Below are positions 7,386 through 64,000 of a stretch of DNA of 64,000 nt, piece after piece. A model generated the notes under the pieces. The model made no database searches, had not been told where the DNA came from, and was given only the letters and a program-made list of their open reading frames with translations. The first letter of the stretch is position 1. Every line of letters begins with the position of its first letter. Both the position numbers and the translations under genes were made by a program. Source of the DNA: Flexivirga meconopsidis. Its GTDB lineage: Bacteria > Actinomycetota > Actinomycetes > Actinomycetales > Dermatophilaceae. Where the stretch lies: positions 806,001 to 870,000 of the forward strand of contig NZ_JAOBQJ010000001.1 of assembly GCF_026162425.1 (NCBI RefSeq), read 5' to 3'.

Positions 7386-7423
7386 GCAATGAGTGGCGTC
7401 CTTGCAATGACGTCACTCATTGC
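7386..7423. terminator. Hairpin between convergent genes, with TGACGTCA palindromes nearby
   Basis: Arms 7386-7400 and 7409-7423 pair over 15 bp with one mismatch (arm starts GCAATGAGTG, loop CTTGCAAT). It sits between the convergent acetyltransferase and helicase-associated genes and can act in both directions, although no T-run follows. The flanks (about 7358-7460) repeat related pieces: TGACGTCA at about 7408 and 7428, and AATGACG/GTACGTCA fragments. This looks like a degraded palindromic repeat element rather than a simple terminator. Confidence 0.5.
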
Positions 7424-7496
7424 CGGTGACGTCAGTGAGCGGCGAAGTACGTCAGTCGCTGACCCGTGGCGAGCATCCGGGCACACCGCGCGCGAG

Positions 7497-14131: not shown

Positions 14132-14430
14132 GCGTGCATAACGCGAAACGGTTGCGGCTTGTGCACGGTGGGTGGGGTGGTGGCGTGCATAACGCGAAAC
14201 GGTTGCGGCGTGTGTGCAGTGCGCGGGTTGGTGGGGTGCATAACGCGAAACGGTTGCGGCGTGTGCACGGTGCGTGGGCTGGAGGCGTGCATAACGCGAA
14301 ACGGTTGCGCCGTGTGCACGGTGCGCGGGCTGGAGGCGTGCATAACTCGAAACGGTTGCGGCTTGTGCACGGTGCGCGGGCTGGAGGCGTGCATAACGCG
14401 AAACGGTTGCGGCTTGTGTGCGCACCACAC
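14132..14430. repeat. Tandem array, six copies of a 51-bp unit
   Basis: Units begin at 14132, 14183, 14234, 14285, 14336 and 14387, an exact 51-bp period. Each opens with (G)CGTGCATAACGCGAAACGG and continues with GTTGCGGCKTGTGCACGGTG; unit 4 has GCGCC, unit 5 has ACTCG and the last unit is truncated. Within a unit, GTGCATAA and TTGTGCAC (or a near form) make short inverted arms. 51 is a multiple of three and no stop occurs, so open frames cross the array in several phases and fuse to menD, giving 17-residue repeats that I regard as non-coding. It fills the 385-bp gap between menD and a flavodoxin gene. No CRISPR-like variable spacers are present. Confidence 0.9.
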
Positions 14431-62955: not shown

Positions 62956-63699
62956 ATGACCTACACCTTGGTGCTGCTTCGTCATGGCGAGTCCGAGTGG
63001 AACGCCCAAAACCTCTTCACCGGCTGGGTCGACGTGCCACTCAGTGACAAGGGGCGCGCGGAGGCCGAGCACGGCGGTGCGCTGATCAAGGACGGCGGGG
63101 TGCAGCCGGACGTGGTGCACACCTCACTGCTGCGCCGGGCAATCACCACCGCCAACCTCGCGCTGGACGCCGCCGACCGGCACTGGATCCCGGTGCGCCG
63201 CAGCTGGCGGCTCAACGAGCGGCACTACGGGGCGCTGCAGGGCAAGGACAAGAAGGCCACGCTGGAGGAGTTCGGCGAGGAGCAGTTCATGATCTGGCGG
63301 AGGTCGTTCGACGTGCCGCCGCCGCCGATCGAGCCCGGCAGTGAGTTCAGCCAGGACGGCGACGTGCGCTACGCCGACCTCGGCGACGAGATGCCGCGCA
63401 CCGAGTGCCTGAAGGACGTCATCGAGCGCTTCCTGCCCTACTGGGAGCAGTCGATCGTGCCGGACCTCAAGGACGGCAAGGTCGTGCTGGTCGCCGCGCA
63501 CGGCAACTCGCTGCGTGCGCTGGTCAAGCACCTCGACGGCATCGGCGACGAGGAGATCGTCGGCCTCAACATCCCGACCGGCCAGCCGCTGGTCTACCGC
63601 CTCGGCGACGACCTCAAACCGACCGTTCCCGGCGGCGAATACCTCGACCCGGTCGCCGCGAAGGCCGCAGCCGAGGCCGTCGCCAACCAGGGCCGCTGA
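62956..63699 (+). CDS. gpmA: 2,3-bisphosphoglycerate-dependent phosphoglycerate mutase
   Basis: 247 residues. It interconverts 3- and 2-phosphoglycerate in glycolysis through a phosphohistidine. The catalytic motif is [22 protein letters not shown] near the start (H10-like, R9), with [38 protein letters not shown] and [20 protein letters not shown] for the second histidine. Length is normal. ATG 62956 is close behind the YbjN stop. The repeat array begins 15 bp after its stop. Confidence 0.97.
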
Positions 63700-63713
63700 C
63701 GGCGAGCCCCGCG

Positions 63714-64000
63714 CATCTCGTAAGCGGGCGTGGTTGCGCGTCTCGTAAGCGGGGGTGACGTCAGGCGCACTGTTGCTTACGGGATCAGCAAGTCCCGGCC
63801 CATCTCGTAAGCGGGGGTGACGTCAGGCGCACTGTTGCTTACGGGATCCGCGACGGCCGCATCTCGTAAGCGGGGGTGACGTCAGGCGCACTGTCGCTTA
63901 CGGGATCCGCGGCAGGTGCGCGTCTCGTAAGCCAGCGTGCGGTTGCGCGCATCTCGTAAGCGGGGGTGACGCCGGGCGCACTGTTGCTTACGGGATCGGC
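63714..64000. repeat. Palindromic repeat array running off the right end
   Basis: Full units of about 48 bp open TCTCGTAAGCGGGGGTGACG and close CACTGTTGCTTACGGGATC, at about 63740, 63804, 63861 and 63951. Shorter half-units (TCTCGTAAGCGGGCGTGG at about 63717 and TCTCGTAAGCCAGCGTGC at about 63923) alternate. CTCGTAAGC pairs with GCTTACGGG, and a palindrome TGACGTCA lies inside most units. The array continues beyond the window, so its full size is unknown. Confidence 0.88.

Follow-up and report, generated by a model that had tools for sequence, protein, structure and literature searches.

The array of palindromic units that follows gpmA in Flexivirga meconopsidis is probably a cluster of dispersed copies of a REP-like repeat family, with the adjoining AbiEi-like/DUF559 nuclease gene as its cognate gene, in a REP/RAYT-like system that uses an unrelated enzyme. 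There is strong support for the association of such palindromes with nuclease genes; a role of the nuclease in spreading the repeats is what we infer from it. The array lies at the right-hand end of the window, by which we mean the whole stretch of 64,000 nt that was analysed (G000:C1:806001-870000, G000 being the window's genome). Comparisons were made with its sister species (G004) and with three other Flexivirga genomes (G001, G002 and G003).

The full unit is a 58-nt imperfect palindrome composed of an arm (ATCTCGTAAGC), a 4-nt spacer, a 16-nt inner GTG-N10-CAC, a further 4-nt spacer and the opposite arm (GCTTACGRGAT), with weaker symmetry outside the arms. Beginning 11 nt past the gpmA stop codon (63697-63699), the array reads H-F-F-F-H-F-(F-F), where F is a full and H a half unit and the last two F lie past the window, and it extends ~130 bp beyond the window end (Table 1). 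All full units share one orientation. The half-units consist of the left arm and GTG and lack the right half, as the first-pass annotation had described from the sequence; half-units are also present at locus L065 and in the second array flanking the AbiEi/Vsr-like gene. The arms that annotation had named were likewise in place, with four matches in the window to the pattern CTCGTAAGC-N15-45-GCTTACGGG and none in 100 shuffles. The complete palindrome, at about 58 nt, exceeds the length which that annotation had recognised.

Table 1 Features of the gpmA-phoU junction and of the second array in the window. Positions are those of the window unless given as contig positions; covariance model scores come from a model built partly from these same units.
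Feature	Position	Strand	Basis or remark
gpmA (phosphoglycerate mutase)	62956..63699	+	ORF L061:1956-2699; name from the first-pass annotation, no family search
Half-unit 1	63711..63732	+	sequence; pattern match at G000:C1:869719
Full unit 1	63734..63791	+	covariance model, 72.7 bits
Full unit 2	63796..63853	+	covariance model, 73.1 bits
Full unit 3	63855..63912	+	covariance model, 72.1 bits
Half-unit 2	63916..63939	+	sequence; pattern match at G000:C1:869926
Full unit 4	63945..64000	+	final 2 bases outside the window
Full unit 5	contig 870008-870065		past the window
Full unit 6	contig 870071-870129		past the window
AbiEi/Vsr-like gene	contig 870236-871168	+	starts 236 bp past the window end
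Second array flanking the AbiEi/Vsr-like gene, opposite orientation	contig about 871161-871494		followed by phoU (-)
Second array of the window	14134..14421	+	6 copies, 51-bp period, GTGCATAACnCGAAACGGTTGCGGCTTGTGCAC

The first-pass annotation had read the array as an alternation of full and half units, resembling BIMEs built from two REP forms. The order is no alternation, either of full with half units or of orientation, and a comparison with BIMEs therefore does not hold. What stands of that interpretation is an interspersed, extragenic, array-forming palindromic repeat, like REPs. The array is indeed interrupted by the window end, with units 5 and 6 following the truncated unit 4, and the pattern both persists past the edge and recurs at many other places, so the proposal that it might end at once and occur nowhere else fails. 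The inner TGACGTCA, found three times inside the gpmA array, had also been placed at 7408 and 7428 in another junction; the former position was correct, and the second copy lies at 7427. The imperfect palindrome at 7386-7423 (GCAATGAGTG...CACTCATTGC) differs in sequence from the array unit, and an exact search of the G000 loci for its outer arm, CAATGAGTG, gave no second copy. A REP-associated transposase had been suggested as a partner to look for; a search for Y1_Tnp (PF01797) matched none of the five genus genomes, and the same search matched 5 of 14 control genomes.

When at most 3 mismatches were allowed over 20 fixed positions, the fetched G000 loci yielded 38 units, grouped in 20 clusters, and 13 fetched stretches of G004 yielded 52, in 15 clusters; G004 has more copies outside those stretches. 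A covariance model built from 77 units was searched over 119 genomes of the taxonomic family under stricter filters, by which weak matches are lost; it gave many matches in G000 and G004, and one or two weaker ones in each of 14 other genomes. Among the congeners, G001 had one marginal match (E 0.006) and G002 and G003 had none. A scan for the element across the contigs of named genomes, from which records close to the source genome were possibly excluded, gave none. For 14 of the 16 fetched G000 stretches, the corresponding junction in G004 also carries one or more units, the exceptions being L065 and L072, and copy number varies between the two species (1 vs 10 units at L077/L093, 2 vs 5 at L069/L083). 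An exact scan of the G000 genome for the half-element CGTAAGC-N4-GTG returned 69 matches, three of them outside known clusters, and 19 for the backwards control pattern; with 3/69 exact matches outside clusters, the idea of an uptake sequence was rejected.

The repeats favour the ends of genes. Between convergent genes lie 21 of 35 clusters, vs 28 of 281 element-free junctions drawn from the same stretches (Fisher p about 8e-11), a comparison in which the clusters are not independent because seven stretches are orthologous between the two species and were counted separately. Of the remaining clusters, 13/35 are located between same-direction genes and 1/35 between divergent genes. In 9/35 clusters, the stop codon of a neighbouring gene overlaps the 38-nt core, at a depth of 5 or 15 bases, which places it in the outer arm or the inner palindrome. 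Genes were called with a codon-usage script of ours, for which stretches of G000 and G004 served as the training set, and a 7-kb hole in these calls leaves the neighbours of the L079 clusters uncertain.

Past the gpmA array, a gene of 311 aa sits between two inverted arrays of the 58-nt repeat, with gpmA and phoU outside them, and the arrangement is the same in G004, where the gene is 98% identical. At the gpmA-phoU junction, the gene is absent in G001, G002 and G003; in G001, the gpmA and phoU stop codons are 11 bases apart and the junction is repeat-free. Gene and repeat family thus occur together in two genus genomes and are jointly missing from three, save for the one marginal repeat match in G001. 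In G003 (L096), the same junction is occupied by a 60-bp repeat of unrelated sequence (TACCTCGCTACTGTCGTCACTTATTCG...), present four times, and in G002 by yet another palindrome. Homologues at 41-47% identity are found elsewhere in all five Flexivirga genomes, and the protein family is present in 105 of 149 genomes of the taxonomic family (E 1e-25 or better) and in 4 of 296 genomes of a phylum sample, two of these four being from the same taxonomic family. One homologue (L253) had no match in a plasmid collection.

Pfam gives weak DUF559 and AbiEi_4 matches alone for the 311-aa gene and, over 73 members, weak matches throughout (DUF559 13/73, AbiEi_4 7/73, MTES_1575 1/73). With 13 sequences the structure model was of poor quality (pLDDT 56), and a model built from 73 homologues (pLDDT 87.5) was used instead. 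In this model, residues 1-198 match AbiEi (6y8q; Z 12.6, 183 aligned, rmsd 4.0). Residues 202-305 match the homing endonuclease I-Bth0305I (Z 9.0, 84 aligned, rmsd 4.7), AbaSI (Z 7.0, 93 aligned, rmsd 3.2) and Vsr (Z 6.6, 90 aligned, rmsd 4.1). The C-terminal part is a predicted Vsr/homing-endonuclease-like domain with a Vsr-like PD-(D/E)XK fold, on scores that are moderate (Z 6.6 to 9.0, with Foldseek E-values of 0.03 or worse for the nuclease domain); a profile match to PvuRts1I has E 0.004. Invariant residues in the homologue alignment include E206, D237, E248, H254 and D263, which we take to be an EDxHD-like active site.

The association of palindromes with these genes was assessed by asking how well the two flanks of each homologue match one another. 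Up to 590 nt before the matched region were aligned, in both orientations, with a downstream stretch of at most 512 nt that included the surroundings of the stop, and a threshold score of 18 was fixed after a first set of 13 Flexivirga and 25 other-genus genes. At this threshold, matching segments bracket 12/13 and 19/25 of the first set, 31/40 of the further genes taken after it was fixed, and hence 62 of 78 homologues in the taxonomic family. All three homologues tested from outside it, in two other families, are also bracketed, one of them by segments about 255 nt out on either side. The genes below threshold were counted as misses: in the first set L259 (Flexivirga), L273, L276, L277, L283, L284 and L296, and in the second L298, L300, L301, L308, L310, L311, L316, L322 and L323, where L311 is cut by a contig end and L323 has an internal stop. 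The alignment of 73 sequences (A3) omits L311, L316, L323, L325 and L333 of the 78.

Control genes seldom reach the same score. Only 1 of 253 other genes attains 18; in a larger, overlapping control set the figure is 6/412, which includes the AbiEi/Vsr-like gene in G000 and G004 and leaves 4/410 other genes. Among genes whose two adjoining gaps both measure at least 60, 5/111 pass, again including the AbiEi/Vsr-like gene of both species, and mismatched flanks pass in 6/339 and, in a larger comparison, 140/6006 cases. The four passing controls, all kept in the 4/410, are L116 (via a duplicated amidase gene), L065:6008-6628 (via another palindrome pair), L093 (via the 58-nt repeat itself) and L083 (at 20.5). 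A homologue's own downstream flank was the best match of all 78 for just 43, in part because related loci share flanks. Over 65 bracketed loci, the median distance from the upstream segment to the matched region is 149 nt, and that from the stop to the downstream segment is 5 nt. The shared segments are mostly palindromic, with a median self-palindrome score of 19.0 against 8.0 for random 65-mers (95th percentile 15), and the lowest tenth, at 8.5 or less, are no better than random, so not all are palindromic. By eye, several Flexivirga families repeat the arm/4/16/4/arm plan.

The palindromes also differ from gene to gene in a manner that tracks the proteins. In a set of 60 bracketed loci, the more alike two proteins are, the more alike are their palindromes (Mantel p = 0.001): none of the 142 pairs under 45% protein identity scores 18 or more, and 7 of the 17 pairs at 75-85% do. 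Part of this co-divergence may come from loci inherited together with their flanks. The closest homologue, L315 (62%), has palindromes of the form GGAGCCGTAAG...GTGCG, near to CTCGTAAGC...GTG in plan and in the CGTAAG...GTG core, and G093 and G057, of the same genus (g54) as L315, contain L315-type repeats that have no homologous gene in the 1.5 kb around them. These repeats are among the strongest covariance-model matches outside Flexivirga; a further match, of ambiguous type, is in G107. Within G000, the second array of the window belongs to the family of repeats (3 + 4 copies) that bracket a distant DUF559/MTES_1575-type paralogue at G000:C4:364410, and a further distant paralogue at C3:480567 is bracketed by a third repeat family; a distant paralogue in G002 (L266) has no bracket. 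In two distant paralogues, MTES_1575 matches fall below the cut-off. Two more copies of the second-array family were seen in L078 (G000:C6 near 19333).

Empty sites are available for several of the genes. For five Flexivirga genes (L254, L255, L256, L259 and L260), another congener has both neighbours without the gene, and by eye these sites are without the cognate palindrome, at a divergence at which unit ends are not exactly placed; the gpmA-phoU junction is a sixth such case. The added block starts at or just past the neighbour's stop codon at L259, L260 and gpmA, and no target-site duplication could be fixed at the empty sites, where divergence is high. Two of these junctions (L343, L351) hold a palindrome of another family instead, in the form of gene-free copies of the L255 and L254 families in G003 and G001. 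Eight of ten Flexivirga nuclease genes were not properly called by the codon-usage script with its G000 and G004 training set; a foreign origin would fit this, as would caller error.

A working model would run as follows. The N-terminal domain would recognise the cognate palindrome, and the nuclease domain would nick or cut there; repair or strand transfer would then copy palindromes to other gene ends, where arrays could expand or shrink. Palindrome, gene and palindrome may sometimes be copied whole to other gene ends. Host effects, such as termination or protection of mRNA 3′ ends, would be secondary.

The main rival regards the palindromes as bidirectional terminators or 3′-end stabilisers whose numbers rose in this lineage; the nuclease gene would be placed among them for insulation. 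Terminators that spread would account for the location at gene ends, often between convergent genes, and would agree with the strong predicted hairpins (-29.8 to -35.0 kcal/mol in the five units folded) and with paired changes that preserve the stem at one locus, L080 vs L167. Against it, pairing of the palindrome arms across 77 units equals that of shuffled columns, with no covariation beyond column make-up, so we make no RNA-level claim; and at L074, a separate conserved hairpin (GAAAGCCCC..GGAA...TTCCAGGGGCTTTCG) lies beside the unit's place in G000, G002 and G003, so the unit looks redundant there. Nor does it account for the different palindromes that accompany the homologous genes, or for the absence of gene and family together, and we regard it as unlikely. 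In the 58-nt alignment, G-T pairs seemed to favour one strand, but this was discounted, as orientation had been set by the analyst and the copies are non-independent.

Alternatively, the gene could be of a defence or toxin-antitoxin type, with the palindromes as its regulatory sites or as passive scars of integration. PADLOC does return weak matches (methyl-directed REase, E 4e-5; AbiEi, E 8e-5), and the predicted AbiEi fold would fit; yet gpmA and phoU adjoin the arrays on the outside, and, unlike in AbiE type IV toxin-antitoxin systems, no adjacent AbiEii-like nucleotidyltransferase gene was recognised between these two at this locus. Regulatory sites, moreover, are not needed downstream of a stop codon or in tens of gene-free clusters, and we consider this explanation rather improbable. 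The repeat, as a short, dispersed, lineage-specific palindrome with conserved ends, could also be taken for a MITE that derives from a DDE transposon with terminal inverted repeats and has nothing to do with the nuclease gene. We hold this to be very unlikely: the exact half-element scan of the genome gave no end pair at transposon distance outside clusters, and the one clean presence/absence site, where G000 has a half and a full unit (L065) and G004 none (L162), shows no target duplication, although a deletion there is possible.

To our knowledge, the HUH transposase RAYT is the one kind of partner with which REP-type repeats have been described. In one account, RAYTs are recognised by a gene flanked by its own palindromes, by lineage-specific families and by copy number tied to the gene (PMC2817692). 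The Flexivirga system is like these REPtrons in its extragenic palindrome arrays, in families that are lineage-specific and track the gene, and in having that gene between copies of its own repeat (PMC2817692, PMC8266576). It differs in lacking a Y1_Tnp match in all five genomes, in having no GT(A/G)G head before the stem (by eye, in the 58-nt alignment of 77 units) and in an enzyme predicted to combine an AbiEi-like with a Vsr-like fold; unlike in BIMEs, its full units do not alternate in orientation. With neither a Y1 transposase nor a REP head, it is not a member of the REP/RAYT class, though it would work like one, and a gene that is AbiEi-like plus Vsr-like by prediction stands where a RAYT would be.

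The predicted C-terminal fold is shared with Vsr-like nucleases, I-Bth0305I, PvuRts1I and AbaSI. Homing endonucleases usually sit in introns or inteins; the Flexivirga protein differs from them and from Vsr-like nucleases in its AbiEi-like N-terminus, and its gene stands alone between palindromes at gene ends. Through its weak Pfam matches, the family also resembles DUF559/REase_MTES_1575 Vsr-like proteins, for which VsrA of Caulobacter has been treated as a possible mismatch-repair endonuclease (PMC12907096) and the DUF559/MTES_1575-type domain has been placed among conflict systems (PMC3710099); the string 'palindrom' is absent from the main texts of both. A search of the open-licence literature without preprints, in which an earlier report could be missed, found no link of AbiEi/Vsr-like (DUF559) proteins to palindromic repeats.

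The finding that most of the related nuclease genes lie between differing repeats of their own suggests a nuclease-linked repeat-spreading system unlike the known one. On an evenly balanced view, the actinobacterial AbiEi/Vsr-like (DUF559-type) proteins may constitute an unrecognised class of repeat-spreading enzymes, each with its own palindrome copied to gene 3′ ends and with occasional moves of palindrome, gene and palindrome together, a RAYT counterpart that would have evolved independently from a homing-endonuclease-like nuclease. If this is true, extragenic palindromes in a genus without Y1 transposases would have their origin explained, an unexplained protein family common in this taxonomic family would gain a testable role, and many pairs of protein and DNA site would be at hand for studying specificity change in a small nuclease.

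Units of the repeat are not confined to the surroundings of the nuclease gene. A G004 gene with a weak HNH match (L093:5350-7002) has CGTAAGC-family units on both sides (ten and one), so adjacency alone is not exclusive to the nuclease gene; the orthologous gene in G000, a DUF222 match, is accompanied by a single unit. The control gene L065:6008-6628, of unassigned kind, has a palindrome GCCGAGGTAGCA...TGCTACCTCGGC upstream and a matching segment downstream (score 56). Finally, arrays of a GTCCC...CTCGACCGTCG...GGGAC repeat were observed in L152 and L156 (G001, G002), at junctions that carry CGTAAGC units in G000.
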